IMG/VR virus record: IMGVR_UViG_3300036985_003382
Location: 1-64,000 of that record
DNA: 64,000 nt
Source of the DNA: a virus
Strand: one strand, 5' to 3'
Notes under the pieces: model-generated
What the model was told of the DNA's origin: nothing
The model's database searches: none
The model's input: the letters and a program-made list of their open reading frames with translations, nothing else
Shown here: in pieces, positions 1,956 through 55,700 of the stretch
Position numbering within the stretch: the first letter of the stretch is position 1
Layout of the letters: the number at the start of each line of letters is the position of its first letter
Position numbers and translations under genes: made by a program

Positions 1956-2256
1956 TACTGTATAACTCTTTCAGTTCCTTGTATGTCTTGCCTGTGTTTT
2001 CAAGATAGAGGCTGCAAAATGCAACCTCACAATGACGCTCGCTGTACATGCGATGTTGAGTGCCATCATTGTAATACTCAACACCACGACGTATTCCCAT
2101 ACAACCTATCTCTTCAACCAAAGCTCGTCGCAATCTAGTATCACTAGGCATATTGCGAAACACCTCAAAGCGCTCGCCTTGTTTATTGTTTGGTGTTGAG
2201 TCCCACATTGTGCCCCACAACTCAAACTTGTATACAACTGGATCTTCTGCTTTCAT
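1948..2256 (-). CDS. Hypothetical protein
   Basis: 102 residues, no recognised domain. Its ATG overlaps the TGA of the upstream gene (ATGA), which fixes the start at 2256 and shows translational coupling. Mixed alpha/beta composition, two Cys in EEIGCMGIRRG and HCEVAFC segments, no membrane segment. Function unknown. Confidence 0.7.
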   Translation of the reverse strand: MKAEDPVVYKFELWGTMWDSTPNNKQGERFEVFRNMPSDTRLRRALVEEIGCMGIRRGVEYYNDGTQHRMYSERHCEVAFCSLYLENTGKTYKELKELYSNE

Positions 2257-2543
2257 ATTTTTACCTCTACCGTAACAACAAAAGGTTTAAAGTCAGGCTC
2301 TATTGTGATTGTTACCTTTTCTGCTTCGTCATCCCATTCAAGATAACAATCAGGGCATTCAAGACAGTACTTAGCAGTTTTCTTGTCTGTCACCCATGCT
2401 TCCATGACACCTAAGAAATACCTTCTGTCTTTCTTAGGGCAGTTAGTCATACGATAAAAGTGACGTGCCCAACGTAACATGCCAGGTGCATTAAACATTG
2501 GAACGGATGTAAGTGTAATTTTTCTCATTGTGTTATCTTTCAT
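2253..2543 (-). CDS. Hypothetical protein with a CxxC pair
   Basis: 96 residues. Two starts are possible: Met1 at 2543, which directly follows the pseudoknot element by 10 bases without a ribosome site, and Met6 at 2528, preceded by GAAAGA at good spacing; the second is more likely for independent initiation. The sequence has YCLECPDCYLEWDD (two Cys pairs, a possible half zinc site) and a beta-rich C-terminus. No family recognised. See the finding on in-frame readthrough from the upstream gene. Confidence 0.65.
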   Translation of the reverse strand: MKDNTMRKITLTSVPMFNAPGMLRWARHFYRMTNCPKKDRRYFLGVMEAWVTDKKTAKYCLECPDCYLEWDDEAEKVTITIEPDFKPFVVTVEVKI

Positions 2544-2553
2544 TATGTAGTTG

Positions 2554-2581
2554 TGCGTTGTCAGTGAGACGCACCCCTCAC
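2554..2581 (-). promoter_or_regulatory. Candidate H-type pseudoknot element, copy A
   Basis: Leftward RNA reads GTGAG-GGG-TGCGT-CTCAC-TGACA-ACGCA. GTGAG pairs with CTCAC and TGCGT pairs with ACGCA; the two stems interlock with loops of 3, 0 and 5 bases, a geometry allowed for a coaxial H-type pseudoknot. It starts 7 bases after the stop of the upstream gene and ends 10 bases before the first ATG of the next. A second copy is at 3102-3129 with both stems and the GGG loop unchanged. Confidence 0.6.
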
Positions 2582-2588
2582 TTACCGA

Positions 2589-3083
2589 TTACTTGATAAG
2601 AGTTATCAAGTCTGAGTTATCACGAGCAGCAGCTGCCTTGATATTGTCAAGCTTCTTCATTGCTTTGGTGACCTGCGTCCAGAAATCGAAATCAATCTCA
2701 GGCATAGGTACCTTGTCAATGACTAATCTGAATCCCTCAATCGCTTGATTGATTTGATCATCAAGTGTTGTTGCCGTGATGGCAAGACCAAACTCGGATT
2801 CCTTCATTGCATTTGGGTGATACCACTGATCATTGCCTTGGTCGTAGGCAGAGTAAGTGACTGTAACCATAGCAGTAGGTAAAGGCAAGGCTACTAATGC
2901 AGAAGTAGCAATGTCCATTCGTAGGACATACTTCATTCTCAACCTATGACCGTTGATAGTCATATCAGTTTCGTATTGGGTAGTTTGAAACTCTTCATAA
3001 GAAGTAAGTGTTCCAGCGCTGAGGCGCTCACCAGACTTCAGAGTGTTCTCAACGAAATGGGTTGTGTAAAGTGTTACGGACAT
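2589..3083 (-). CDS. Hypothetical protein
   Basis: 164 residues with a beta-rich N-terminal two thirds (repeated T-V-T/Y-S type strands) and a helical C-terminal third ending in DNSDLITLIK. No family recognised, no signal or membrane segment. It lies between the two pseudoknot copies: copy B is in its 5' leader, copy A starts 7 bases after its stop. The position suggests that its expression or that of its downstream neighbour is under RNA control. The ribosome site upstream is weak (AGAAAAG). Confidence 0.7.
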   Translation of the reverse strand: MSVTLYTTHFVENTLKSGERLSAGTLTSYEEFQTTQYETDMTINGHRLRMKYVLRMDIATSALVALPLPTAMVTVTYSAYDQGNDQWYHPNAMKESEFGLAITATTLDDQINQAIEGFRLVIDKVPMPEIDFDFWTQVTKAMKKLDNIKAAAARDNSDLITLIK

Positions 3084-3101
3084 GATTTTGTTTCTTTTCT
3101 A

Positions 3102-3129
3102 TGCGTTGTTGGTGAGACGCACCCCTCAC
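3102..3129 (-). promoter_or_regulatory. Candidate H-type pseudoknot element, copy B
   Basis: Leftward RNA reads GTGAG-GGG-TGCGT-CTCAC-CAACA-ACGCA, identical to copy A except for two bases in the 5-base third loop. It begins 8 bases after the stop of the upstream gene and ends 18 bases before the ATG at 3083. Differences confined to a loop while both stems are kept exact agree with selection on RNA structure, though two copies cannot show true covariation. Confidence 0.6.
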
Positions 3130-3137
3130 ATCAAACA

Positions 3138-3392
3138 TTAGATAGCGACGTAGCAGTATGTTAGTAGTTTTACTTGACCTTTAGTCTTTATTAAATTAAT
3201 GACATCGTCGTGTTGTGATTCATCAATAAACTCAAGGATCTCCGAAATCACAATGAGTGTAAAGTTATTCTCATTACGTGAATCTTCATAGTGTTTACTG
3301 ATTCGGTTAAGTTGATCTTGCGTTATAAGGTTTTCGTTAAATAGTGAATCGAGTAATAACTCACCACTAATAACTTCATATGGAAACTTCAT
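3138..3392 (-). CDS. Hypothetical protein
   Basis: 84 residues, no recognised domain; acidic, helical (LLDSLFNENLITQDQLNRISKHYEDS). It starts directly before the previous gene's stop is passed (adjacent codons) and ends 8 bases before pseudoknot copy B. Function unknown. Confidence 0.65.
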   Translation of the reverse strand: MKFPYEVISGELLLDSLFNENLITQDQLNRISKHYEDSRNENNFTLIVISEILEFIDESQHDDVINLIKTKGQVKLLTYCYVAI

Positions 3393-7180: not shown

Positions 7181-7205
7181 GCACCCGGTATCTTACACCG
7201 GGTGC
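7181..7205 (-). other. Nine-bp intercistronic hairpin
   Basis: GCACCCGGT at 7181-7189 pairs perfectly with ACCGGGTGC at 7197-7205, 7-base loop. It follows the stop of the first leftward gene by 11 bases. On the leftward RNA an A-rich, not U-rich, stretch comes after it, so it should not terminate; on the other strand the T-run precedes the stem. Confidence 0.5.
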
Positions 7206-7216
7206 CAGCGGGGAGG

Positions 7217-7564
7217 TTATGCCAGCTCTGTGCCAGCATCCTCCGATGTGCCAACCTGCGTGGTTACTGCATCCATTGCAGTCTTAGCAGATTGTGCATA
7301 TTGAGCGGCGATAGCATCCGCCTTCGCTTCGGTAACGGCGATAGAACACTCCAACACCTTAGCGGTCAATGCTTCCAGCAGGGAATCAAGGTTCGCTTGG
7401 CTTGCAAGCGGTGAACGGCGTGCATTATTCGCATAGACCTTTGCAATGTTGCGGTAAGATTTCTGCACTGACTCTGCGCGTACACTATCGCTGTTCGTTT
7501 TACAAACAGTCAATAGCTCCAATAGCGCATTGACTTCAACGGCGGCGGCGGATAAAAACTTCAT
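7217..7564 (-). CDS. Hypothetical helical protein, first gene of the leftward operon
   Basis: 115 residues from the ATG at 7564, which has an AAAGGAAA ribosome site eight bases upstream; the longer frame to 7612 has none. The sequence is alanine-rich and helical throughout (VEVNALLELLTVCK ... ALTAKVLECSIAVTEAKADAIAAQYAQ), probably a helical bundle. No family recognised. As the first gene behind the divergent control region it should be among the earliest expressed. Confidence 0.7.
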   Translation of the reverse strand: MKFLSAAAVEVNALLELLTVCKTNSDSVRAESVQKSYRNIAKVYANNARRSPLASQANLDSLLEALTAKVLECSIAVTEAKADAIAAQYAQSAKTAMDAVTTQVGTSEDAGTELA

Positions 7565-7664
7565 GATACTTTTCCTTTGGTAAAACAGTTTCGACAATAA
7601 GTTTGTCTTCATTCAGCACTGCAGTAACCAACTGCAGTAGACTGTTTCACCGTGCCACCCAGTA

Positions 7665-13494: not shown

Positions 13495-16400
13495 ATGGCA
13501 TCATTATTATCTAGCTTAGTTCGTGGAACTTCACCAGTCAGAAGACCAGAAGATGAAACAGTGACGCCCGGAGGAGTTGCTCCTGCGCAACCTCCGGTGT
13601 CTATTCCACCTACTGCTCAACCAGTTCCTCAAGCAGCTCCACCATCAAGGGATTTAGCATCTGAGCCATTAATACCATCTATGGATGTTGGACCAGCCAT
13701 GTTTGATCCATCAAAGTTAGATTTTGGTGCCTTATTTCAAAATGCTTTACTTAAGTCTCAGCCATCTGCACCTACTACTACTGTTGATACAGCACAAGGA
13801 CCACGCGTATTAGCTGGCAGTACGCCAGCACAAGATATTACACAGATTAAAAGATCTGATTTTAAAATCGAAGATATATCAGCAGATGCAAAAGGACTAG
13901 GAAAGTTTTTAACTGACTCTGGTGGGGGAACTTATAAATCTGGTTTAGGTTTGATTGATGATATGCAAACGTGGTTTAACAAGACTACGCGCACAGGCAT
14001 GGGTGAAACACCTATGTCTCCACTTACAGCAGGTACAACCAGAGATGAATTATCTGGCGATAGCCCATTACGTAAGTTGGTTGGATATGCAGCTTCATTA
14101 AAGAACTCTGATGCGCCATACGCCAAGGAACAAGCTAAGGCATACTCTGATGCAATCCTTTGGCTGACTAAATCCATTGAGAACAACGATCAAAGAGCAT
14201 ATACAGCAGCAAAAGCAAACATTGACTCTCTTACTAAGCTAAACACAGAAGACTTTGCTAGATCTGGAACTAGATCCCAATTTGCTAGAAATGGTCAGTT
14301 AGTCAGTGCGTATGTAACAGGCAAAACCATACAACAAGCTGAGATAGATAAAGAAGCTGCATCTACACCAGCAATACAACGTAAGGTTGTAACAAGTGCA
14401 GTTTTTGACTATGTGCAAGACAGATTTAAAGACTTAAGAACACAAGCTGAATCCGGAGGTGAAGACGCACGGAGAGCACAGCGTACGTTAGATGTTTTTG
14501 GTCAATCATTTAAAGATATCTATGCACCAGTAACTGAGGGCACTCGTGATGCTAGATTAGCAGCATTTGAATCATCACCACAAGGTCGAGCACTGATTAC
14601 AGACGCGTTTGATAACTTGTCAGGTCTAGGATATTTTAATAGACCTAAGTTCAAAAGCATTGTAGATAGATCAAAGGCGGGAGACATTAATCTTACGCCT
14701 GCTGATATCAAATCTATTATTGGTGAAACACAATATAAAAAACGACTCGGTTCTACTATTGATGTTGCTGATGATTTACCTGATGACGCAATCCAAGCCC
14801 TAAAACTTACACCAGATGACCCACAACGAATAAGCGGTGTCTATAGAGGTTTAACACCACAAGGCATTGGGGCACTACAGGGCTTTGGGGATACTGATCA
14901 ACCATTAGGTGAGCCACTAAGAGCAGGTCAGCCAGACGCTAGAGAATTTGATATTTCGCAGAACGTTCGTTCAACTGATACCTCTACTGGTATGACTATC
15001 ACTCCAGTTACTGATAGCAAAATTAAAACTCGTGGTGAGTTAGCAGGAGCTATGGTTTCAGGCCTTGGGTTAAATACAGAACAAGCCGGAGAAATTGCTA
15101 AGCGTGTATTTACGGACACAACAGATCAACAAAGCTTTATAAACGCAGCTACCGTATCGTATGACATACAAGATGATGTCTTAACTAAAATTGCATCTGA
15201 CGCTGGAACTATACGTGTTGCCAATACTGGTGGACAAACAACAGGAGGCCGCGCTAAAAGTACATATGCTTTAGTTAGCGATGTATTTGCCGCCGCTAAT
15301 GATGTATTGCCACAACAAACATTTACAGAATCTTCATTAACACGACGTCAATGGGATTTGCGTAAACGTGTATTAAATGACGCTGCTTCACAAGCTCAAC
15401 AAATTGAAGGATCTGGTGCAGATGACGCAGTAAATGTAAAACGTTTCTATACAAGCGCAGATGGCAAACCAGATTTTACAAAACCAATTGTTCCAGATGC
15501 AAAAGATCAAGTAGGCAGGATTGCACTTCTTAAAGCAATGATTGATAAGGCCGCTGCTCCAGATGGCGCTGCATATAGACGTCAATTAGAGTTGCTGGCC
15601 AGAAGTGCTGTTGATGGACAACCATACACTGGCAGCATCAATATGAATCCAAGAGCGTTCCAAGGTCTTGTCAGTCTCTATGCATCACGTGTTGAAAGTG
15701 CTGCAGATGCTGATAAATCTGGGAAAACAGACAGTTGGTTCCAAAGCAAATTTGACATTAAGCCAAGTGAACTATCTAAGGTTGATAACCGAGATGCGTT
15801 CATGATGAAACTGGTAACAGCAAGCCCATCAGCGTTAAGGACATTTGCTAGTTCACTAGGAGCAGCGGATGCAACTGTTACACGTGGATTAATTCCAACT
15901 ACTACTGCTGGTCAAGTAATAGATACCGCTGCTGGTATTCCGGGTGACATACAGGGTGGTGGGCGCAAGAATAGTAAAACCGAAAATCAAGCTCTAGGAA
16001 ATATAGATCGAGCTACAAAAATTGTTGGCGGTGGATTTGAATCTGCTTTAGATGCAGTTTTAAAGTATAACGATGATCCTTCAACTGTAGATGTTCCACA
16101 CACAAAAAAACAGTATGGCGAGGCGTTACTTGCCGTATTTGACAAAACATTAAATGAGTCAATGAAAGGCGTTTCATTTAAAGCTGGAGACAAAGCAAAG
16201 TTTAATAGTTTACGTGAAGCTATTCGCACTGAAATTATTAAACAAGCTGACACAGAATGGACTGCTGGAACTGTAACTAAAGACGATCTTAATGCAATCC
16301 TTAAACCGTTAGCTTCACAAATTCTAGGAGTTGACGCGCAAAAGACAAAAGCATTACCTGCGGTAGATAAACCTGAACCAAGTGTTGTCAAAGACCTTGA

Positions 16401-19400
16401 AGCTGGTAAGTCTGCTTATGACAAAGCCAAGGCTGAACTTGGCGGAGACCTTGGAACAAAAACAGACATTGCAGCTGAACTTACATCTGACGAATCTTCT
16501 AAATATCCTGCGTATCAAGCATTTCTTGGAAAGTTAAAAGAAAGGCGTTTAGTCAATTATGGTCGTATTACCAAAGAAGTAGAAACACGTCAGTTAGGTA
16601 TTACGACGGCTGGTGCAAAGTTAAATAGATTAAAGCAAGAAGGTAAGATCAATACACCTGAATTTAATACAGCATTAGATGCATATAACAAAGCACACGA
16701 TGACTACAATGCTAAACGTTCAGAATTAGATACAGCGTTTGATTTAGTTAGTCAACCAATATCACTTGATGATATGGACAAATTAATAAATACAAAAGAA
16801 TTAGCAGTAATTGGAAGCGCTTCTAGGTCTGAAGCATTTACTAAACTAAGAGAAAAGATTTCAAATGGTGGATGGGCATCATTAACACCAACAGAACGCG
16901 CAAGTTATTATCGTGAATCACTCACTAGATATTTTACTAGCGAACGCGGTAACGCAATCAGTCCTGTAACTCGTAGACGTTTGGCCTTTAGATCATTTAT
17001 TGATTCTCCTCAAGGAGCAAACTGGGCACCTGTTAAATTAACAAGTGAACCGGGTGCTAATATAGAAAAATTAAAAGAGGACGCGTACACACCATCATAT
17101 TTAACGGAAGTTACAAATGAAAAAGGTGATGTTATTGCACATAAGCTCAATCCTAATATTTCATTCAAATATGTACCAAAGTTAAATAAAGAAACAAACC
17201 GGATTGATTCATTAGATATTGTTGCTGAAGAAAGAATTACTGGCGGCGACAACAGACGAACAGTTACAAAAAGACAGTTTGTTGTAACTGGCCGTGAAGT
17301 AGAAATTATGATGGCCCTTAATGACATGAAAGACATTAAGGATGAATTTGCTGCTATTGAAGCAAATGTATTAAAACTTGATAGTGTTAAACAAAAAGTA
17401 ACTGACACTAAACAAGCTGCAAAGTTTGGCTTAGTGCAAGATAAAGATAGTGGATATAAGTATCGAGACGGTGGATCATTTAGTCAGCTATTGCAAAGTT
17501 TAGTTGAATTTGAAAATGCTCCTAGTTTAACTAAAAACCAAGAGACGGTAAGAGCCGCATTATTGGCTGAAGGAGAAAAGTATTTAACGCAAATAGGTTC
17601 AAAAGATTCAATTAATAAGGTAGTAAACAAATACGCTAAACGTGCTGGCGCTGCAACTCGGATGATTAAATTCCAAGACGTTTTGCGCGAACGTCTTGCT
17701 GATCGAATTGATGCCTTTAGTAAAAACGGGAGAACACCAAATTTAGCTGATTTACAACAAGACATAAATGATTATTTTGATGGCGGTAAGATTGACGAAG
17801 TCGATAATGACGCCAGACGTACTGAAATGGCAGCTTTGCAAAAGACAGATGTTGCTGGAATTTTACGTGCAGATAAATACGTAGAGAAAACATTTGGAAC
17901 AAACGGACCATTACAAATATCAGCAGCTCAAAACACTAAGGGTAATCGAGCAATAACCATGCCCGTTGCAAAAGCTTATGATGAGTTATTGCAACTGAGA
18001 AACAAAATTGATGGTGGTGATCAATCTCCAGAAACAGAGTTTAAGTTTTTACAACTAAGAGATAAATTTGTAGAGCACACTGGAAAATCAATTAGTGATC
18101 TCGATAGAGCATTTACTATCAGTAACGTTGAATCTGCAAATAATTTAGTTACTACTGGCGGTAATAAACAACGAGCATCTGGTGAAAACTTTGGTATTAG
18201 ATTTGGCGAATACGCTCAAAGATATATACCAATTAAAACACCACGTCCGGGATTTGAAACTGAAGCAGATTTTAAAAAGTTTAACAAAAAGATGACGGTG
18301 AATGAAAAGAAGCGCGTTGATGCAGAAAAGGAACTAGGTAAGACTCTTGGGTTTGACACCACTAACTACAGTACACGTAGTAGTGTATGGACTGACTTGA
18401 ACACAAAATGGAAGAACTCAACACCTAATCAATGGGATTCATGGATTTCTGGTGTACCTGAAGAAGTTAGAAATAGAGTTCTTGAACATTATACACGTTG
18501 GTCAACAATGGGTGGAGAGGGTAAAAATGATGCACTTGGAAATCAAGGGCAAGCAGGATGGAGGGCTATTGATTGGGCAGTTGACGGGAATGGCAATGTA
18601 ACGCCTGATGCAAAAAAAGTACTATCTTCAATTACTCAATGGGCTTCAGTAAGTAGAGTCAAGTTTGATAGCAATGATCTTAAGGATTTATCAACAGACA
18701 TTTTACGGATGTATACACTTGAAAACAGTAACACCAAAGTAACTAGAGAGGATTTAGCAAAGTTTAAAAGCCCATTGGTAAGAGGTGTATTGCGACAGCG
18801 AATTAATCCCGGACCCGGCATAACAATTGGTGATCCGTTTACTCAATTTATTAATGCTATTGATCCAACTCCACTGCAAGGTGCTGCGCAAATTGTTGCA
18901 CAAAAACAGAAAACGGCACTGGCATTACCACAAGCGCGACGCGTAGTAAATCAAAAACTTAAAACAGATGCTGATTTTAGGTCTGCTGTTAATTCTGTTT
19001 TACGAGCAGAAGGTGAACGTTATGTAATTACCGATCAAGGAAAAATTGCAAAACGTTCTTATTCCGCTAAAGATCCAGTAGAACCAAAGGGGTTATCTGG
19101 TGATGATTTATTCAAATGGAGAGTTGAAAATAAACAACTAACGTATTTAGATTATTTACGTTACTCTGCTGATGTGCATGACACGGCTACTCAACCAAGA
19201 GACTTTTTGATTGATGGTAAAACTGTAACGGTTCCAGTTAGAGATGTAAAAAATGGACCTGAAGGCATGTTGAAATTCTTACAGAAACGTATGTCACGTG
19301 CTGAACCTAAGTCTGTCACAAACTTTGAGGCCCCTAAGTCTGTTGTCGCATTACCACCAAATGTTGATCCATTGCGACCGGGTAGACAGATAGGATTCCG

Positions 19401-19758
19401 GTATCAGGGTGCAGATTACTTTATTGGTGCAAAAGAATACGCATCGCTTGTGCAAGATATAAATGACGGAAAGATCAGCACAAAAGATGTAAGGGGTCTT
19501 GTTACATCATTAGTTTCTAAACTTAGATATAGAACATATGGTGCAGACTTAAAGAAACCATTATTACTTGGAGTAAAAGCAGTCGGTGAAGGTGAAGCTG
19601 ACGTAAAGAAAATTCCAAAAGAAGTTCAAGAAAAAATGATTGAAGAAGCAAAGAAAGAAGGCTTCAATATCAAAAAGAGTATTAAGGGTGGAATACCGGG
19701 ATTCTTTAGTGCGATGATTGCAGCTATTATTGCAGAGTGGAATAGCAAGGAAGAGTAA
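13495..19758 (+). CDS. Large protein (2,087 residues), probable internal virion protein
   Basis: No enzyme motif recognised. The first 90 residues are Pro/Ser/Thr-rich and start MASLLSSLVRGTS, similar to the portal's SKLSSMVRGNK. The rest is mostly alpha-helical, charged and Lys/Asp/Ala-rich, with long helical stretches around 1030-1130. The C-terminus (GGIPGFFSAMIAAIIAEW) has a short hydrophobic helix that could insert in a membrane. Size, helical nature and place in the virion block suit an internal or ejected protein. Its position upstream of terminase, away from the other ejection-type genes, is unusual. Confidence 0.7.
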   Translation: MASLLSSLVRGTSPVRRPEDETVTPGGVAPAQPPVSIPPTAQPVPQAAPPSRDLASEPLIPSMDVGPAMFDPSKLDFGALFQNALLKSQPSAPTTTVDTAQGPRVLAGSTPAQDITQIKRSDFKIEDISADAKGLGKFLTDSGGGTYKSGLGLIDDMQTWFNKTTRTGMGETPMSPLTAGTTRDELSGDSPLRKLVGYAASLKNSDAPYAKEQAKAYSDAILWLTKSIENNDQRAYTAAKANIDSLTKLNTEDFARSGTRSQFARNGQLVSAYVTGKTIQQAEIDKEAASTPAIQRKVVTSAVFDYVQDRFKDLRTQAESGGEDARRAQRTLDVFGQSFKDIYAPVTEGTRDARLAAFESSPQGRALITDAFDNLSGLGYFNRPKFKSIVDRSKAGDINLTPADIKSIIGETQYKKRLGSTIDVADDLPDDAIQALKLTPDDPQRISGVYRGLTPQGIGALQGFGDTDQPLGEPLRAGQPDAREFDISQNVRSTDTSTGMTITPVTDSKIKTRGELAGAMVSGLGLNTEQAGEIAKRVFTDTTDQQSFINAATVSYDIQDDVLTKIASDAGTIRVANTGGQTTGGRAKSTYALVSDVFAAANDVLPQQTFTESSLTRRQWDLRKRVLNDAASQAQQIEGSGADDAVNVKRFYTSADGKPDFTKPIVPDAKDQVGRIALLKAMIDKAAAPDGAAYRRQLELLARSAVDGQPYTGSINMNPRAFQGLVSLYASRVESAADADKSGKTDSWFQSKFDIKPSELSKVDNRDAFMMKLVTASPSALRTFASSLGAADATVTRGLIPTTTAGQVIDTAAGIPGDIQGGGRKNSKTENQALGNIDRATKIVGGGFESALDAVLKYNDDPSTVDVPHTKKQYGEALLAVFDKTLNESMKGVSFKAGDKAKFNSLREAIRTEIIKQADTEWTAGTVTKDDLNAILKPLASQILGVDAQKTKALPAVDKPEPSVVKDLEAGKSAYDKAKAELGGDLGTKTDIAAELTSDESSKYPAYQAFLGKLKERRLVNYGRITKEVETRQLGITTAGAKLNRLKQEGKINTPEFNTALDAYNKAHDDYNAKRSELDTAFDLVSQPISLDDMDKLINTKELAVIGSASRSEAFTKLREKISNGGWASLTPTERASYYRESLTRYFTSERGNAISPVTRRRLAFRSFIDSPQGANWAPVKLTSEPGANIEKLKEDAYTPSYLTEVTNEKGDVIAHKLNPNISFKYVPKLNKETNRIDSLDIVAEERITGGDNRRTVTKRQFVVTGREVEIMMALNDMKDIKDEFAAIEANVLKLDSVKQKVTDTKQAAKFGLVQDKDSGYKYRDGGSFSQLLQSLVEFENAPSLTKNQETVRAALLAEGEKYLTQIGSKDSINKVVNKYAKRAGAATRMIKFQDVLRERLADRIDAFSKNGRTPNLADLQQDINDYFDGGKIDEVDNDARRTEMAALQKTDVAGILRADKYVEKTFGTNGPLQISAAQNTKGNRAITMPVAKAYDELLQLRNKIDGGDQSPETEFKFLQLRDKFVEHTGKSISDLDRAFTISNVESANNLVTTGGNKQRASGENFGIRFGEYAQRYIPIKTPRPGFETEADFKKFNKKMTVNEKKRVDAEKELGKTLGFDTTNYSTRSSVWTDLNTKWKNSTPNQWDSWISGVPEEVRNRVLEHYTRWSTMGGEGKNDALGNQGQAGWRAIDWAVDGNGNVTPDAKKVLSSITQWASVSRVKFDSNDLKDLSTDILRMYTLENSNTKVTREDLAKFKSPLVRGVLRQRINPGPGITIGDPFTQFINAIDPTPLQGAAQIVAQKQKTALALPQARRVVNQKLKTDADFRSAVNSVLRAEGERYVITDQGKIAKRSYSAKDPVEPKGLSGDDLFKWRVENKQLTYLDYLRYSADVHDTATQPRDFLIDGKTVTVPVRDVKNGPEGMLKFLQKRMSRAEPKSVTNFEAPKSVVALPPNVDPLRPGRQIGFRYQGADYFIGAKEYASLVQDINDGKISTKDVRGLVTSLVSKLRYRTYGADLKKPLLLGVKAVGEGEADVKKIPKEVQEKMIEEAKKEGFNIKKSIKGGIPGFFSAMIAAIIAEWNSKEE

Positions 19759-43779: not shown

Positions 43780-46700
43780 ATGCCAGATCAACGCGACAAA
43801 TCCAGATCCGATGCTTATTGGAAAAAAAGATATACCGAAGCAGGTGTTGTTCCAAGTCCTCAAGGTGTGACCGTAACACGGCCTACTAATAGGCTAGGAT
43901 TTGAAAATACTTATCCAAAAAGTCAAATTAATGAGTTTGTACGTACTCAATATAATCCGTTAGCTGATGCTATACGAGCAGGTAATCCAGCTGTAGTTTC
44001 ATCCGCCACTCTTGACTTTGCTAATAATGCATATCGCGAAGGCCTTATTGATGAGTCTCAACGCAATTACATAAAGTCAAGTATTGCGAATATGCGTCAG
44101 CAGATGTCGCGTACTCCTGTTGCTTCAGCAGATGGACAGCAAATTCCATTTGGGCGGCTTGGTAGAGTTCAAGGACCATCTGGAACATTTGGTGCAGTCA
44201 ACGATCAGTTAATGCATTCTGATCTAATTCAATACAATGCAGATGGTTCTTTTAGTTATAATCCAGCAGGTACTGCAGCAGATATTAACTCGACAACTGG
44301 TGCTAATGCTAGACGTCAACAAGACATTATGGCTGGCGCTACACCAAAAAGTGTTGGTGCTGAAACATGGTCTACATTAGGCGCACAAGCAGTTGGCACT
44401 GCAGCTGCTTTGCCATATGGTCTAGCGTTAAACTTTCCCGGTTTTAATCCACAAGCTAACGATGAAACATTTGGTGGCAGGGTCGTGTCTTCTGCTCAAG
44501 GTACGTTGGCTGGATTTGCAGCTAAACCACTAGACATGATGTCTGGTATTACTCAGGGTACGTCTTATCTTGGCGCAAGATTAGCAGGGCGTTCTCCAGA
44601 AGATGCAAATCAAATAGCATCAAGTATAAAAGAACAAACTCCTTATTACAATACAAGTGATCAAATGCTTGCACCGGGCATGGAAAACCAACAATTTCAA
44701 TTAGGCTCTGCTGTAGGTGGTGAGCTTTTTACTGCAGTACCAGCACTGTACAGTAGCCTTGGATTACTTAATGCATCAGGAGCACTTGGTGCTCGGATGC
44801 TTGCCAGTGCTGGCACTAAAGCTTCTAACGTTGGTAGATATATTGGCATTGGGTCAGCTGTTGTAGCCCCTACTGCTGTTGCTGGTTTTAGAGACCAGTT
44901 AACTGGTGGGAAACCCGGTGTTAGGGAAGACCTTGTAGCGGGCGCAGAATCCATCATGGATCCTATTAGGTCTACTATGCAACGAGGTATTACGGAATCT
45001 GGTGCAATTGGTCAAGCAAACTTTGACCCTCAAGGTAAAACTCAAGCAGCGTTACAACAAGCTGGCATTCTAGCAATGGCAAGTGGTGGTTCATTACAGA
45101 TGTGGAAAGACGTAAAAAATCAATCCTCTATTGGCATTCAAGCAATGCGAGAAAGCATTAAGACAAACCGCAATCCATTTACGGCACTTGGAACAGGCAT
45201 TTCAGCTTCTATTGAAGGAGAGATTGGTAAGGCTGCAGCCGCTGATCTTGGCTTTGCTTTGACTCAGCCATTAAGTGACATTGGGCGTATGGTATACGCC
45301 AACACACGTATTGATAAATCCGTGCCAATAGACACTCCAACTGCTGGTGATGTATTTAAGTCCATGATGCTTGGCCTTGTTGCGTCACGTCCGGGTAAAA
45401 GTGCCCAATTCATTTTCCGTGGTAATCCTCTACAGAGCCTTGAACCTAAGACTATGGCATTGGCTCATGCTACTGATATTGTTCGTAAAGGTGGACCAGA
45501 ATTACAAGCACTAGTAAAGCATTACAACGAAAAATATAACGACTTCATTGAACCAAATGACGTCGATATTAGACGTCTTGCAACAGTAATGGCTAATGAT
45601 AACGTAGCAAACTTACAAAGGTTAGCTAAATTTCAAGAGATTGAAGACGGTGCTCCAGTCACTAAAACAGCTGCGGAATATATTGATGCATACATAAATA
45701 ATCCTGACGCATTCCCAGAATCACTACGTACTAAATATGAGACATTACTTACGAGCATGCGTCCAAACAAGGCCAAGATAGACCTTGATGATGGCAACCC
45801 ATTAAATACAATTGAGCTGGCTGATGAGTATAAGACTGATCTAGTTACTAGGCGTAGGCGAATTAAGGAATATACCGATGCGCTATTGCCAGTTTATACA
45901 GAGCAGATGAAAAACTTAGGTCAAAAGCCAGCAGAAATTAGTGACAAGGTTCGTTATTACGGCATTGATACTAAAGATGGACGCATGCTTTTATTTGACA
46001 GGGATTTTAGGAATGCAACATTAGTTCCAAAACATGAAGCTGAAGACATTGCAATGCTTCAACCAAAGTATTCCCCAATTGAAAACGTTTATACACCAGA
46101 AGAAAAATCTGACCGCCAACCTTTATATGAAGCCCTTGATAATATTCGAGGCAAGGTGTTTCGCATAGGTTCGCAAGACGGAGTTGTTACACATTTTGAC
46201 GCACTGGGTGTGTTCGTTAAAGTCGAGGGTGGTGAAAGTAAATTTTTAAGCCGTAGGGAGATAGAGCAACTATTAGAAACATCTACTTCTGATGGTTTAA
46301 CGGAAGAACAAATTGATAATTTAACTCAACTACAAGAGTTAACAAACATTATTCATAGAACACAAAGTCTTGTTGAACCAACAAGACAATCTCTTTATGG
46401 TGAGCAATTTAAAGATAGTAGATTTAAAACACCTTTATTAAATACTGGGCGATCGTTACGTGTAAAGCCAGATGCAAATTTAGTAGATACATTTAGAGGT
46501 ACTGATATATTCCAGTCCAGCGATGGATCTTATGCAATTTTTACTAAAGGTGAAATCCCTTCTACGCTTTCACCAGAATTTAAAAATCCCGGCGAAAGAC
46601 AAATTGATCCAACTAATTCAGTGTGGACAGTAAGTAAAGATACTGCTAGTGGACCTATAGATGTTGACCTTGTGTTATCTGGGCGCCAACAAGAAGCTAT

Positions 46701-49700
46701 TGCTGCGTTACCACTAGGCAGTACTGCTGAAAAAGGTATTGAGAAAGCCTACGATTATGCAGACCCATTTACTCATGACCTTGGAGATATTGTTTCTGTT
46801 ACACAAAAAGATGGCACTGAAGTTAAATATGTTCTTGTTGAAAAGTTTGATGACTCCGCAATAGGTGTACGAATAGATGCACCTGAGTCAACTCCTGCAA
46901 TTATTTTTGAAAGTCCTGCATTAAAAGTAGAAAAGATTGACAGGGGATTTTTGCAGACTAAATTTGATTCGGCTAGTCGTGTAGTTGGCGCGGATTTGAC
47001 ATCTATTCGCCCAGAAAATAATGAGATTACGACAATCTTGCAGCATGCAATGTACTTGTCTAGTCGTGATGAATCTGCTGATGGTCCAGCTATTGTTTAC
47101 GATGAAATTACTAATGCCTTACCTGAAGAGTTATCCGGCGTTATTCATAGTGTTCTAACAAGAGATGCAGAGACATTAGGCGTTGAACGTAATGTAGCAG
47201 CTTCATTGCGTGAGTGGTTATTAAAAAATAGAGAACAAGCTGCTGATTTAGAATCGTATATTCAAGGAGCAATGGCAACTGAGATTACACTAAGTGCTCG
47301 TGACATTAGTGTGCAGAAATTAGCAAGACTACAACGCATTCTTGACAATGGAGAATTAAATAGTCTTATTGATCAATTGGTTGGAGTATATGATTCTGAC
47401 GCAGAAACATCTGCTGACGTCATGTACTCTTCTAGCCCTAGAAGAGTAGGAACAGCAAGAGGAGAGTTTCTGACTCTTTTAGGTGTAGCAAACAAAATAA
47501 ACAGACTACTAATGCGCGACAAGCATATTAGTGATGCAACTATTGAGCGTGTAGTAAACAAGGACCTTGGTAAAGATACACGCTTTGAAGGTAAGTTAGA
47601 TATTGCATTACAAACAATTAAGAAGTTAGCAAAGTTATCTAGCCAAATAAACCCTATTGCTTTAGGAGTAGTTCTAAATAAAGGTTCGTTATGGCAGATG
47701 GAACAATTAGCCTTGTTACCACAAGACATACAGGTTCTGTCTGCATTAGTTCCATATGAAGATATGCCGTCTGTTTATACGGATTCATTTGGAGAATGGT
47801 TTGCGTCAAAAGAAAAATACATTGCAGCTGTTACACGCGCAAAAGATTTATATTCTAATGCTGTAGCTAATGGCCCTGATGCCATTGCAAATTTAAAACG
47901 TGCGATGTATGACGCTCGCCTTGGATTCTTTTATGAGATGGCGGCACGAGCACCAGAAATTGCATCAAGAGTAGACATGGATGTAGATGGTGGACGATCA
48001 TTAGACACTATTAGTTCTAACCGTCAACGGTCTGCTGATGCAGTAAATGATGTTATTAAACGATTAGCCACTGAGAAGTTAGCTATTATTGCTAAGCAAC
48101 TTCGAGATAATGAAACAGCACCAGATATGGCTGTTCCTGTTCCAATGAATGAGTTAGTTGCTGTAACTAAAATTGCGGATAAAGATGGCTCTATTGATTT
48201 TTCAATCATGACAGACACTCAAGCTTTAGATGCAATTGTCGGATCAGAAGCAGGTGTTGATGCATTAATTTCAATTGGTCGTAGATTAGCCAATGAACTT
48301 GATAAAGAAGACACTATGACTGGTGTTTCTGTTTATAGTGAGGAAGGTTTTAATGTAGGTTTAGGCACACTGCAAGAAGCAAAAGCACAACAAGAAAACA
48401 AATCTTTACTAGCAGCTGTAATTAGAAATTGGAACAATTTAACTCCTGAAGCTAAATCTGCAATTGGCTATATCAACATGCCATTAATCCAGTTGAGTGA
48501 GTTAATTAAAGCTATTGATAACGCTAACGATGATGCATTACGTGAGTCATTAATCTTTGGAATTATGAATGCTGTTGGTACAGATGGTGCATCTAACACA
48601 GGATTTGAATTAAGTAAATTATTTAAAAGTCTGGACTCTGCAACAAAGTTTAGTAATTTTGCTGCAGATGTAATGGCCAAGAAAAATATAGCTGATTCTA
48701 GTGGCGGAGAAAGCGCAGAGACTAGACGCCGAACTTCTATACGTGGCGCAATGGATCTTTTACTAAAGTTACGATCTGAAATAGTTAACCCTGACGGAAC
48801 TAGCATATTGGAAACTGCTGCTCTTTATTACAAATCCGCAGGAATAAAACCATCGGATTTATACTCGTTTATGTCTATGGTTTCACAAGAAGTTACTACA
48901 TCTATGTTAGATGTTATTTCTAAAAACAAAGACACCAATCGAATGGAAGTCATTGGAGTTATTAGTAGTCAAGCAGCTGAAATGGGACAGGTTGTTAGAG
49001 TTGCTGGATCTGTAGAAGGTGATCAATCAACTAAACAAGCGGTATTAGAATTGCTTCATACAGTTACAACTGATGGGCTTCAATATTTAGGTGTTACGTT
49101 TGACCCAAGAACACGTGTTCTTATAAGTGATGCCGTTCATCGAGTTATTAGTCAAGGAAAATTAAATACTGCAGGATTGAACTCGGTTGAACAAGCACGT
49201 GCAATGATGGAAGAAGCTCGTACCTTGTCTGCACAGATAGCCGATTTCGTACTAGGTGATAAGTCATTAGCCGAGCAACCAAATGCTGCGTATACGCCAG
49301 CTGCTGAGTCCACAGCAGAAAAGGTAGTTAATGCAATTGATGGCAACACATTCCATCAACGGTCTGGATCTAACAAAGATGCTGCAGCATATTTGCTTCT
49401 TGCTGGTAACAGGGCTGGACTTGAAAAGATTATTTTAGCAACGTTATTTGATGCTGCAAGTAAGGATCAAATTCAGTTTGCTTCAATTGATGAAGCAATT
49501 GTTTCAGTAACTCTTGGTCCAGAGTTTGCTCGCAAATATTTTGCACGTGTTAAACAAGCACGATTTGTTAATGACAAAATTATTTTTGGCACAAGTGGAA
49601 TTTTAAGAGCCGCAGTATTGCCGGGTGGTGCCGAAACTTACACTTTGCCTGACGCAACAAAACATGATTTGATTGAAGGCCAAGCGCTTTTAAATCACTT

Positions 49701-52700
49701 TATGCAAAAAGCGTATCAGTTACTATCACCACGTGACAAAGGTAGATTTACTGAGGCCGTAACTTCATACATTGCTAAGAAACGAGCTGAGTCTAACTCA
49801 CAAGAATTTGAATTTGAAATCAAAGACTTGATGACTATAGCTGAAGGTTTTAATGGAACAAAAAACCAAATGTTTAAGGCATCAAATGATGCAAGTACAT
49901 TAACGTATGGTTTACCAATCAATAAAACATTTACTACTGCGTATAAGATTAAATCTTTAATTTCATCAATCCGTGGTTCTGCCTCAGAGACTCCGTTAAA
50001 TAAAGACACTGATTACAGTGTAATGACTCAGTTTAGTAACATTGGAACTCGGCGTAGTTTTGTTGAAGCGTTTGACAATGTATCGATTTACGAACGAATT
50101 GATACTGCTGATTTAACTGAATCTGACGCTGATCAATTAGCTGCGTTTTATGGAATTGCAGCTAAAGATGAATCTTATAGTCCAAAACAAGCAACAGAGT
50201 TTAATGAATTAGCTAAGTATTATCGAGCAGCTAAAAACTCAGCTGTAATTAAATCTGGAGATAAGAATGTAACACGTGTGTCGAATCGATTTTCTGATGC
50301 TAGAGCAGTAGCGGCTAACCTTGCAAAGGTATATGACACTTATGCAAATAGAATGAGTACTCGTAAGATTACATCTGACATTGACAATAACTTTGACTTA
50401 GATCAATACAAAGCGTTAGTTGCGTTTCTTGGGCTTGATCAAGAGGCATATAACGCAATTATTGCACCAGAAGCAGTATCAAGTGTTGGTCAACTTTTAA
50501 ATAAAGACGGAACAATTCTTTCTAAAGACCAGCAGAAAATGCTTATTTCGTTACGTGCTGCTCAATTAAAACAAGACTTTTATAATCAAAACCATAAGTT
50601 GTTTTTTGCTCACGAGGCAGAGATTGCAAAACTTGGTTATGATCGATCTGAAATAGCAGGACAAGATACTGAAGCAAGTATTACAAGAATTAAACAAGGT
50701 GAGGCATACTCGTCTATTTTGTTTATGGCATCAACTACTAAAAACTTTGACAAAACATCTCTTGCAATGGCGCACGAAGTATCACATCAGTTATTTTATT
50801 CGTTACCAGACAAGAGTCAACTTGACTGGATTAACGCAATCACACGACCGTTAAACACAAATGCCAGTGATGACAAAATTAATCCTGAGACTAAATTGTT
50901 TTATGATTATATGAAAGAACAAAACTCACGTTACAACAATCTTAGTGCATCTAATAAACGAACATTTCGTTTGCAATCAATACAAGAATTTGCTGCAACT
51001 AAAGGTGGGTTTACAGATCAACAAGTTAGAACAGCAAAACTTATTTGGGGAGAATCATCTGCTACTAGTTTAGTTAACTTTATTTTGACCAATGGTGTAA
51101 TTGCAGACGTTACAAATCCAAAGGTATATGTTGGCGAAGACATTACTAGTGCAATGATTAATTTGCAAGCAGTACTTAGGCCAATGGCTGAACGGCTTAC
51201 ATCAACACATGGGGCATATTTAACAGTTGACGGAAAACCTACTAACGTTTTCTATTACAAACCGGGTTCAGTCGTTTATCAGTCACAATCTAAACAAGGT
51301 ATTAATCGTGCATTTTACGCAATGAAACACGGATCTATTGTTTCATTTGTAAACAACAAGGCTAAAAAAACAAGTAGTGCTGTAAAAGTCATTGATGTTC
51401 ACGATGTCATTATGTCCAGTAAGTCTGGTAATAAGATTAACGTTAATGAAGCGTTGACATCGTTAAAAGAATTTATACCTTCCGACGTTGCAGTAGAACT
51501 TCTTGACAAAATTAAGGCATTGCAAGAAAAAGGAATTATCTATGGTGATGATTACTATTTAAGTGTCCACGGAGCCGATGGTTACACCAAGCAAGACGAT
51601 GGGACTACATCACCTGAAGGTTATAACGTAGTCGGTAAAGTTGTTGGCATGGCACGGGAAAAAGTAACTGTTACAGAAGCAATATATGGATTAGGTTCAT
51701 TTACTAATAAAGGTAAGTCATGGATGACAGTGACTAAAGGTCCGGGCGTTTCTGCTAATTCTCCGTGGTACACGCTTAAAACATATATGCATAATCAGCG
51801 TGGTGCTAAATTTGTACAAAACGGTACAAAAGGTGATTACGGATATGTAGTTGAAAGCTCTGGTACATTACGGCTTAATGCAGTTAGACGTAAGGATAAT
51901 GCAGTTGATTTAGCTGAAAACGGATTTAATCGCAAGACATCTTTAAAGTATGTTGTTGGTCATGATTTGATTGCTGAACAAGAAGGCCTGTACATGGTTG
52001 GCACTTCTGATTCTGCAAGCCCACAGTTTATGAGTGTTCTTTATCAGATGTTGAGCCAGATTGATAAAAGAATAATTGATATTGCTGGGCAGAGAACATA
52101 CGACTACGAAACACGTATGAATGCAGCTCTTGCAGATGGCATGCGTAGTGGAAGTTTTGATAAGTGGGATCAAGTTGTTTCTATTCCATTAGCGCTTGCA
52201 TCAGAGAAGAATATTAAAAATATAATCTCTGGCACACCACCCGCAGAATTAGCTGCCGTTAGAAACACTGGCACACATCCGTACGTCAGAAATCAAGCAC
52301 ACGCTAAAAACGTATTAAAATGGGCTAACACTTTACCTGCAGAACAACGGTCTGTAGTGATTCCATTAATAAAGCAAATCGTAGAGCAACACAGTTATTT
52401 AGTTGCTACTAAATTAGGTGGCAGTGAGGGAAGTGTTGGAGATAGGCTTTTAGGAGTTTTTAACAAAAGCACAGACTGGTATTCATTTTTACCATTTGCA
52501 ACTAAAGACATATCTGATCGAGGTATTACTCGTGCTATTGCATCTTTGTTTGAACAATCATTTACTTCATTTGAAGATGCTCAATTGTTTGTATCAGAGA
52601 TGACAAAGGCTAGGCTTTATTTATCTGAAGATCCTACTGGTACAAATTTGACGTCATATTTTGCACGTGGTACAGACGGTGCACCAACGCGTTCATTTGT

Positions 52701-55700
52701 TGTGGAAATTGATGGCGTTAAAGTAGATGTTTCTACATTTATCGATCAAGCATTTGGGTTAAATACACCTGATGAGTCAGTAAATCTTGGTGTACAAAAG
52801 TTTTTAGGCACTTGGGCGGGCGTAGCATTTGATGGATGGTTTAAAGAAAATCAATCTGTCCTTACTAATAACGCAGTAAATATTGAAACTAGGCTAAAGC
52901 AGCTCTATGAGTTGTATAAAGACCCGTCTCCACTTGGTGAGCGAAATGCTGCCCTGAATGAACTTGCAAGGCAAAATGATAAACCACAACCAAACGAATT
53001 AACCATTTATGATTTAGTTGGATTATCTAAAGATTATATTGCCGGTAATAAACGCAAAGTGGACCTTGATGGTTTATTGCGAATGGCTGCAGGTTTTGCT
53101 GCAACTCCAGATCAATTTTTACAAGTGCTTGGCGGAATGAAAAATGGAATAGACTTCAGGCAAACGTTTAGCCCAGAAAGTGCATTGTCTGTAGTTCCTC
53201 ATGCGGTGCTTGATCACATTCTAAATAAAACATTTACGGATGATGTAAGTCGTATTAAGTTTATGAATCTTGTTGCTGGTCGTATACCTGAAGGGTCAAC
53301 TAGGTATGACGTCATACGAGCACGAAACTTATTTAATGTAGTAGAGCATTTAGTTAAGACCGATGCCAAAATTAGGAATGCGGCATTACGTAACTGGAAA
53401 AGTTATGACATTGTTGAGACTATGCCAGAACAAGGTCAAGTCATTTTGCGGTCTCCAGATAGGGATATTGCTGCTGATACTAGAGGTGCAAGTAAGTCGG
53501 GTGCGTTGTATCGCGTTAATTTAAATGATGGACAAACAACTCTTGTTGCTAAGTCATTAAAATTTAATAGTGCAACCGGTAAGTATGTTGAACATTATCA
53601 AGACATTCAAGATGTAGATTCGTTCTTAAAATATAACTGGTCAGACAGAGTTGGCAACAAAGGAAAAGAAGATCCATTTGCATTCAAAGCTGCTGACAAC
53701 AGTCCTGTATTTACATCACAAGATGTATTTGGCACAAGTGACGTACAACGTGTGTATGAGCACTTGAGCGCTATTGCTGGTACAGATAATGTAGCAAGTG
53801 CTTACACTGCTGACGAACCATTGTATTTCATGTTGCCTTATGACTTTATTGGACAAGACACAGCAAATACTAATGTGATTGATCAGGTTGACGGTGAAAC
53901 TACTCGTGATAATGCTGGCATGCACATCATGAAAGCTAAGTACAACAAAACAAATAAGTCGTGGACGTTTCAACAGACACAGCCAAACTGGAGCACGTCT
54001 GATAACTATAGGTCTCAGTTGCCATCTGGCTTATTAAGGATGATTACAGATGGATTTAGCATGGATGGTTCAATACCGTTATCTCCAGAACAACGGTCAG
54101 CCCTTATATCAAACTCAATGTTGCATGAGGAATATCACATTGCTAAGTTATTACTTGCAAAAGATAGGGCGTCTGGAGATAGTCAATACACAAAAGTAAA
54201 TCAAATTGGGCACAAGGTCCTATTTCCGTCAGGTTCGTCTTACATGCAAGATGCTAGTACTGGAACATGGTATTCAAGTAGTCCTACGTTTGATTCTGGT
54301 AAATCAGACAATGTACCTACACAGGAAGAAGAAGTTATTCCTTATCTTAACGACACTGCGGATCCAGAAATAGATATTAAGTATGATGCCGTAAATGACT
54401 TTGCGCGTGTTCAACGAGATGCAAATCAACGGCCACAAACTGTGACATTCTACAGAGACCCTAAAACAAGTAATGGAATGATGGTGTCTGGTGATAGGCT
54501 CAACCCGGTTTTACATATCTCTTCAGATATATGGGCAAATTCGGTTGATGCCCCATTAAAGGGTACGCAGTTTGAGGCCAAGGTTCCAGACGGTAAAGCA
54601 CTTACATTTGACGGTGATGTTATTGACACAGTTTATTCAAGCAGCCCTAAATTTAATGATGCTGCATACAACATTCACAAATGGTTGCTTTTGCCATATA
54701 AAGCGTTATCTATTGCTGGAACCCTTGCTATGGACATTTCATCCGTTGGCATACAGTTAGCCACTCAAGTTCGTAATCCTTTAGTATTGGCTAAGGCAAT
54801 GTTGTATACAGTGCCTGAAGCTTTTATGTTTACAACTAAAGATATTGGGTTTGTTATAGGAGATACGATTCACGCAATCAGGCAAAAAAAAGCTCGTGAA
54901 GGTAGAGGCTTTTGGGCTGGTGGTGCATTTAATGCGGATGTTAAATATTACAATTGGATTATGAATTCAGTTGTTGACAGATTTAATAAATACAACAACA
55001 ACGGCCCTGCTATTTCTTTATCAGAATTAATTGATGATTACTACATGCCGTCTGCGTATAGTGACTGGTATAAGAAACATAAAGCTAATGCAATTGCTGA
55101 CCCGTCAAAATACAAAGACATCATTGATACACCATTTGAGACTAATCTTGAAAACAGTTTAATAGGTCAAATACCGGGCAAACTTATACCAGCATGGAAT
55201 AAATTTGACATGTCTCGTACCTTAGTAATGGATTTGTGTATGTTACAGAACTCATTACGGGCAGTTAGAGATGCACGTGCTAATGTGGATTTGAAACCTT
55301 ATGAAATTGAGCAAGGTATTAGTGCAGCAATTATGAATTATGGTAGAGAAATGGCTATGGGGTCGCATTCTCAAAGTAAAATTCAAATGCCAGCAACTAA
55401 ATTTTTAGATAATGTAGTTAATTACTTTATGACTGCACCGGGATACAACAGGCACTTTGCTCAATACTGGGGTTTTAATAATTGGACATTACCTGCACGA
55501 AAAGCCATTAACGAGATTGCATTAGTAAATACAGTTAACGCACCTAAATGGTTTAGAGGTGAAGTATTTGATATTAAAAGTGATTTAGATTATCAACAAT
55601 ATGCTGGCAGATCAGGTTGGGCTAGTACACGAAAAAAAGGTGAACAGACAACATCTATTAGTATATGGGCAGGTATGGGACTACTGAACGCTGCTATAGG

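Follow-up and report, generated by a model that had tools for sequence, protein, structure and literature searches.

We describe a compact H-type pseudoknot found between the genes of many uncultured phages, which the comparison of related sequences indicates is almost certainly a conserved, cis-acting RNA family. Its best-supported function, which we put forward tentatively, would be that of a boundary or insulator, protecting the 3' end of the mRNA upstream of it.

The window (the whole stretch of DNA analysed, 64,000 nucleotides long) contains two copies. As 28-mers these lie at 2554-2581 (copy A) and 3102-3129 (copy B) and are identical at 26 of 28 positions, the mismatches being the first two bases of loop L3 (TG versus CA). 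On the minus strand, which encodes the local genes, both read GTGAG-GGG-TGCGT-CTCAC-(TGACA or CAACA)-ACGCA, and each follows the order stop codon, 8 or 7 nt, knot, short A-rich leader, ATG. The sequence and a repeat search thus bear out the original prediction of two 28-base elements differing in one loop, with stems GTGAG/CTCAC and TGCGT/ACGCA and loops of 3, 0 and 5 bases, beginning 7-8 bases past a stop codon (from the ORF list, 7 nt for copy A and 8 nt for copy B). Relatives refine the core to 29 nt: the third base of the supposed loop 1 pairs with the base following the 28-mer, so that stem S2 has 6 bp and L1 is GG (Table 1). A search allowing up to three mismatches found no third copy in the window (shuffles, 0 of 100), and the full record of 66,165 bases holds none beyond copies A and B. 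Pseudoknot-free folding of both 28-mers gave a z-score that was not significant, single-sequence folding being uninformative here, and the evidence for the fold is therefore comparative rather than energetic.

Table 1. Positions in the window of the two pseudoknots, their parts, and the neighbouring reading frames.
Feature	Position	Strand	Sequence or remark	Basis
Pseudoknot copy A	2553..2581	-		sequence, repeat search, covariation in relatives
Copy A stem S1	2577-2581/2564-2568	-	GUGAG/CUCAC	
Copy A L1	2575-2576	-	GG	
Copy A stem S2	2569-2574/2553-2558	-	GUGCGU/ACGCAC	
Copy A L3	2559-2563	-	UGACA	
Pseudoknot copy B	3101..3129	-		sequence, repeat search, covariation in relatives
Copy B stem S1	3125-3129/3112-3116	-		
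Copy B L1	3123-3124	-	GG	
Copy B stem S2	3117-3122/3101-3106	-	GUGCGU/ACGCAU, outer pair G-U	
Copy B L3	3107-3111	-	CAACA	
84-aa ORF	3138..3392	-	stop codon 8 nt before copy B	ORF list
A-rich leader, copy B to ATG of 164-aa ORF	3084..3100	-	weak SD-like purine run	sequence
164-aa ORF between the pseudoknots	2589..3083	-	starts after copy B, ends 7 nt before copy A	ORF list
96-aa ORF downstream of copy A	2253..2543	-		ORF list

In the IMG/VR relatives the element has an S1 of 5 bp, L1 GG, an S2 of 6 bp (R-UGCG-h / A-CGCA-Y), an L2 of zero and an A-rich L3, usually of 4-6 nt. Searches that left S1 free returned the new stems CAGAG/CTCTG, CTGAG/CTCAG, AGGAG/CTCCT, GGCAG/CTGCC, AAAGG/CCTTT, GCGTG/CACGT and CGCAG/CTGCG; 15 matches with a different S1 retain all five pairs, and 4 do not. 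With S1 fixed and S2 free, the core TGCG/CGCA was present in every match but one, that one being unpaired, while the pair outside this core varied between G-C, A-U and G-U. With S1 set to CGCAG and S2 free, the well-paired matches carry GTGCG with T, A or G at the junction, and a single TCGCG match may be due to chance. No non-coding match lacking GG retained S1 when L1 was free; S1 pairing with another L1 was seen in a single coding sequence (L097/L099) and was judged to be chance. When the length of L3 was free, S1 pairing occurred mostly at about 4-6 nt and, among the matches listed, was absent at the longest gaps. Each scan of the collection fixed part of the motif, and the conservation of S2 is partly by construction except in the S2-free scans.

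Covariation was measured on 40 distinct gapless cores with an S1 of 5 and an L3 of 5. Standard pairs make up 97.7% of the pair cells, and two-sided changes occur in S1 at four of the five pairs and in S2 at the outer one. For covariation the alignment scores 0.366, compared with 0.099 for shuffled alignments (0 of 500 reach 0.366) and a maximum of 0.142 when the alignment is slid. The compensatory changes in both stems that had been proposed as a test were thus found, in S2 at the outer pair only. The inner four pairs of S2 are invariant, which is conservation of sequence rather than covariation, and 10 of the 40 cores lack pairing at the junction. The invariant positions are G5, the GG of L1, UGCG, C14 and AACGCA, some of them imposed by the search patterns. 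Because the sequences are related, cell counts overstate the number of independent events, and we regard the different S1 sequences amid differing gene neighbourhoods as firmer evidence. Taken together, the interlocked stems and the compensatory changes place the element among the H-type pseudoknots.

It might be asked whether the repeat acts instead as DNA, either as a boundary promoting the exchange of gene cassettes or as a binding or recombination site, since near-identical copies bracket genes and differing cassettes are found behind the same element in related phages. However, the pairing of S1 is kept despite changes of sequence. In addition, the outer pair of S2 across 70 distinct cores is GC in 54, AU in 9, GU in 7 and AC in none, which favours the mRNA as the functional strand (unscreened cores behave alike, except for a single A-C in a match that is probably due to chance). 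We therefore consider a DNA-level role improbable.

The family is widespread among uncultured phages. With both stems fixed, 38 viral stretches match, with one to three copies each, and the catalogue holds at least 152 elements with at least 30 S1 sequences (lengths 4-7) at 100 or more loci, six loci judged to be chance having been removed and some loci being pieces of one contig. A few matches that probably arose by chance, one of them from Komarekiella (L074), were left out. A scan of 257 Gb of bacterial and archaeal genomes with the S1-free core gave 33 matches, two of them with full S1 pairing; the convincing one of these (L070) is a short metagenomic contig with two copies, which is perhaps itself phage. 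A BLAST search of 50,697 phage records with seven variants of the element found none, so the known members come from uncultured phages. Rfam 15 (4227 families) has no match in the window at the gathering threshold, nor at eight loci at E ≤ 10. A literature search on the core sequence and on phage pseudoknots upstream of tRNAs, with subscription papers and supplements outside its scope, found no described family, and both results agree with the earlier statement that none with such a sequence was known. STAXI RNA (RF01728) is also a pseudoknot near SSB and DNA-manipulation genes (PMC2864571). However, STAXI strings together 2-3 pseudoknots with UUCG loops in tandem and has a 153-position model, whereas the present copies are single with genes between them; the STAXI model scored above its cut-off in 0 of 11 records and had no match at the knot.

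Several other sequences came up in these searches. Two S2 variants, ACTAA/TTAGT (L043) and TCGCG/CGCGA (L239), are not claimed as members, an unconstrained S2 having given 8 non-TGCG stems against 6 in controls. The L239 element is absent from ten mycobacteriophage regions, including that of the near-identical phage Fushigi. A conserved non-coding stretch, approximately GACTTGCCAGGCAGGCGAGACCAGCCAGTAACCAAGAGCGGTCGCCCCTGGCCGG, stands before the minor tail gene of Fromanvirus-type mycobacteriophages, in some cases with a tRNA-Trp inserted; it was noticed in L239 and in Mycobacterium phages including Fushigi, TwoPeat and Kykar (L281-L290), and may be a structured RNA. Three phage contigs (L110, L111, L117) carry the degenerate form CAGTG-GG-GTGCGA-CACAA-CGACA-ACGCAC upstream of an ATG, with three S1 pairs only, perhaps a variant whose S1 is shorter. 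One phage contig with the knot (L056) also has a pair of type II hammerhead ribozymes, separated by about 320 bases, at 7193-7256 and 7512-7575 on the minus strand.

The knots are intercistronic and in mRNA orientation, and nearly all copies viewed in context lie shortly past a stop codon and ahead of an ATG. Of 84 GTGAG elements, 81 begin 5-8 nt past the stop; for most other groups this distance is about 4-14 nt, and an ATG mostly follows 14-40 nt downstream. The DUF932 phages are among several groups whose knot is 34-66 nt from the stop, often with a hairpin between; for them and a few others the next start is 13-40 nt away. Genes found upstream include those for SSB, DUF669, DUF932 and capsid E, the product often being one expected to be abundant (SSB, capsid), while downstream neighbours include ERF, primase, tRNAs and genes of no assigned function. 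The neighbouring genes being unrelated, the role of the knot is not gene-specific.

The neighbours of the two copies in the window have no confident family match. The 84-aa ORF has no PHROG match and only sub-threshold Pfam matches, and an ORF of similar length takes its place upstream of the knot in many relatives. Homologues of the 164-aa protein are flanked by the knot in about 30 relatives; the gene behind one copy often encodes such a homologue, and the gene behind the next copy varies among phages. The AF2 model of this protein (pLDDT 89.5) has a four-strand sheet plus helices. It has no match in the PDB at E ≤ 0.001, and one uncharacterised viral homologue was found; a weak resemblance to the PP7/MS2 coat proteins (E ~0.06, TM ~0.22) was not used. 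The first ATG of the 96-aa ORF is 9 nt past the core of copy A, with a second in-frame ATG 15 nt further. The terminase of this phage is a distant relative of those of Rhizobium and Roseobacter phages. Elsewhere in the window a single ORF of 4282 aa (43780-56628, plus strand) takes up one fifth of the 66-kb genome, and a second giant ORF of 2087 aa lies at 13495-19758; both are probably internal virion or ejection proteins.

A start 5-8 nt past a stop codon is similar to the spacing of retroviral readthrough pseudoknots, and recoding of the stop codon was one of the options in the original prediction. This now looks unlikely, since at the two commonest spacings of the GTGAG family the frame beyond the stop is closed within the knot itself, by TGA in S1 or by TAA or TGA in L3. 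Knots upstream of tRNAs, moreover, have no product that could be extended. A stimulator of readthrough or frameshifting is therefore very hard to credit.

Some knots directly precede tRNAs. Using ARAGORN, the gaps from the knot to tRNA-Asn, -Thr, -Pro and -Lys (L154, L168, L173, L194) are 4, 4, 5 and 3 nt, and in L187 the knot by eye apparently precedes a tRNA-Trp that ARAGORN does not call, making five phages with the knot before a true tRNA. A scan for knots ahead of tRNAs of the AGCTCA type gave no new case, and the primase-relative region of Arthrobacter phage Molivia has tRNAs and, by eye, no knot. In about a dozen actinophage-like contigs with WhiB genes the order is SSB/DUF669, knot, primase, with a tRNA-like structure about 4-5 nt past the knot. 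Control of a start codon makes little sense directly upstream of tRNAs or tRNA-like RNAs, and the tight spacing with variable neighbours argues against a gene-specific operator, at least for the tRNA subset.

The tRNA-like structure, found between the knot and the primase gene (L042, L051, L108, L115, L119, L137, L160, L166, L175, L181, L193, L207), deserves a description of its own. It has an acceptor and a T-arm with GGUUCGAUUCC, no D-arm, and an enlarged pyrimidine 'anticodon' loop, and its acceptor, T-arm and 'anticodon' stems all covary. The loop carries 5-10 nt of anti-Shine-Dalgarno sequence that matches the following gene's ribosome site, with own pairs exceeding cross pairs (permutation p = 0.00035, uncorrected for phylogeny). 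The structure is possibly a translational switch derived from a tRNA.

The main rival explanation is a translational operator of the kind found at gene 32 of T4 and RB69, where a pseudoknot of about 28 nt in the phage mRNA lies upstream of the gene, with the ribosome site in an unstructured leader behind it (PMC535899). A phage RNA-binding protein would nucleate on the knot, spread over the A-rich leader and ribosome site, and repress the downstream gene. The present knots resemble this operator in size and layout, ending about 14-30 nt before the ATG with an A-rich leader, and several adjoin SSB, DUF669 or ERF genes. The spacing in the DUF932 group, far from the stop and near the next start, likewise points to the downstream gene, be it through such an operator or some other downstream role. 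However, where SSB and DUF669 genes were identified the knot comes after them and not before, and knots also stand upstream of tRNAs with no start codon nearby. The downstream genes are many and unrelated, and are swapped among related phages; the sequence of S1 is irrelevant; and the core is a different one, shared throughout, with no UUAAA or UAAA repeats in the leaders inspected. An operator of this type is thus possible but doubtful.

A small-molecule riboswitch or other ligand-sensing aptamer also has to be considered, given that the preQ1, SAM-II and SAM-V aptamers are compact pseudoknots which resemble the invariant core and variable stem seen here. Against this, the downstream genes have no function in common, the Shine-Dalgarno sequence is outside the knot in the families inspected, the knot occurs before tRNAs, and it is nearly absent from bacterial chromosomes and has no Rfam match, making a riboswitch a poor candidate. 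Still less probable is a decoy that mimics the RNA antitoxins of type III toxin-antitoxin systems, by which a phage would escape as it does from ToxIN. H-type pseudoknots, with A-rich loop 2 contacts, are also the form of the ToxI and CptI antitoxins (PMC5086642), and a phage that mimics ToxI has been reported (PMC3475682). However, these antitoxins are toxin-specific tandem repeats upstream of a cognate endoribonuclease toxin gene, whereas the knots are single, at gene boundaries, with window neighbours that have no confident family match, and they share one core across phages with very different gene neighbourhoods.

We thus return to the boundary as the reading that best fits these data. 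Most knots are 4-14 nt past the stop, just clear of a terminating ribosome, and the core is common to phages with very different neighbouring genes. That the knot lies just past where a ribosome terminates, and 3-5 nt ahead of a predicted site for RNase P, suggests that it shields the upstream message against 3' exonucleases, and base-specific L1 and S2 with a free S1 are what an intrinsic tertiary fold would be expected to show. In the proposed mechanism, the A-rich L3 would pack on S1 in a manner tolerant of its sequence and the GG of L1 would make base-specific contacts to S2, giving a stiff and mechanically stable knot that needs no gene-specific partner. Such a knot could keep 3'-to-5' exonucleases that start on degraded or processed RNA downstream from reaching the upstream cistron. 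If a tRNA or tRNA-like structure comes 3-5 nt behind the knot, cleavage by RNase P at this point would leave the upstream mRNA ending in the knot, with a tail too short for an exonuclease to load, comparable to MALAT1 and mascRNA. The strict conservation of S2 could equally well reflect recognition by a conserved factor.

Two known systems are close to this proposal. The REP/BIME elements of enterobacteria are intercistronic stabilisers, and share with the knot both this position and a proposed protection of upstream mRNA; they differ in that REP elements are hairpins on bacterial chromosomes, whereas the present element belongs to phages and is a pseudoknot whose core is invariant. In MALAT1 a triple helix stands as a stable structure directly upstream of mascRNA, a tRNA-like RNA cleaved by RNase P. 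MALAT1 is, however, a eukaryotic nuclear lncRNA, whereas the knot is an H-type pseudoknot in phage mRNA, where processing of this kind is putative. In a subset of members, the two window copies not among them, the knot does stand as a stable structure directly ahead of a tRNA or tRNA-like RNA; for protein-coding downstream neighbours a processing site was not identified. The fuller proposal, that a partner-free knot caps the 3' ends of phage messages after processing by RNase P or another nuclease, as a phage counterpart of MALAT1/mascRNA coupled in the actinophage-like members to a tRNA-like anti-Shine-Dalgarno matching the next gene, is accordingly offered as a speculation that may well prove wrong.

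It is worth adding that the knot could serve as a more general roadblock, protecting the 5' end of the downstream RNA, blocking Rho or post-termination ribosomes, or docking the 30S subunit. It does lie close behind stops, and in most cases no more than about 40 nt separate it from the start, tRNA or tRNA-like structure that comes next. However, no promoter or processing site was identified that would place the knot at a 5' end, and a block to Rho or to ribosomes does not explain the spacing of 3-5 nt to tRNAs; this explanation is rather unlikely.

The element is thus a compact RNA family new to Rfam, present at 100 or more loci in many uncultured phages and with strong covariation. Its core is short enough for synthesis, probing and crystallisation, and could become a portable part for marking mRNA boundaries. 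If the link to RNase P is true, phages would make and guard the 3' ends of their mRNAs in a way so far tied to eukaryotic lncRNAs.
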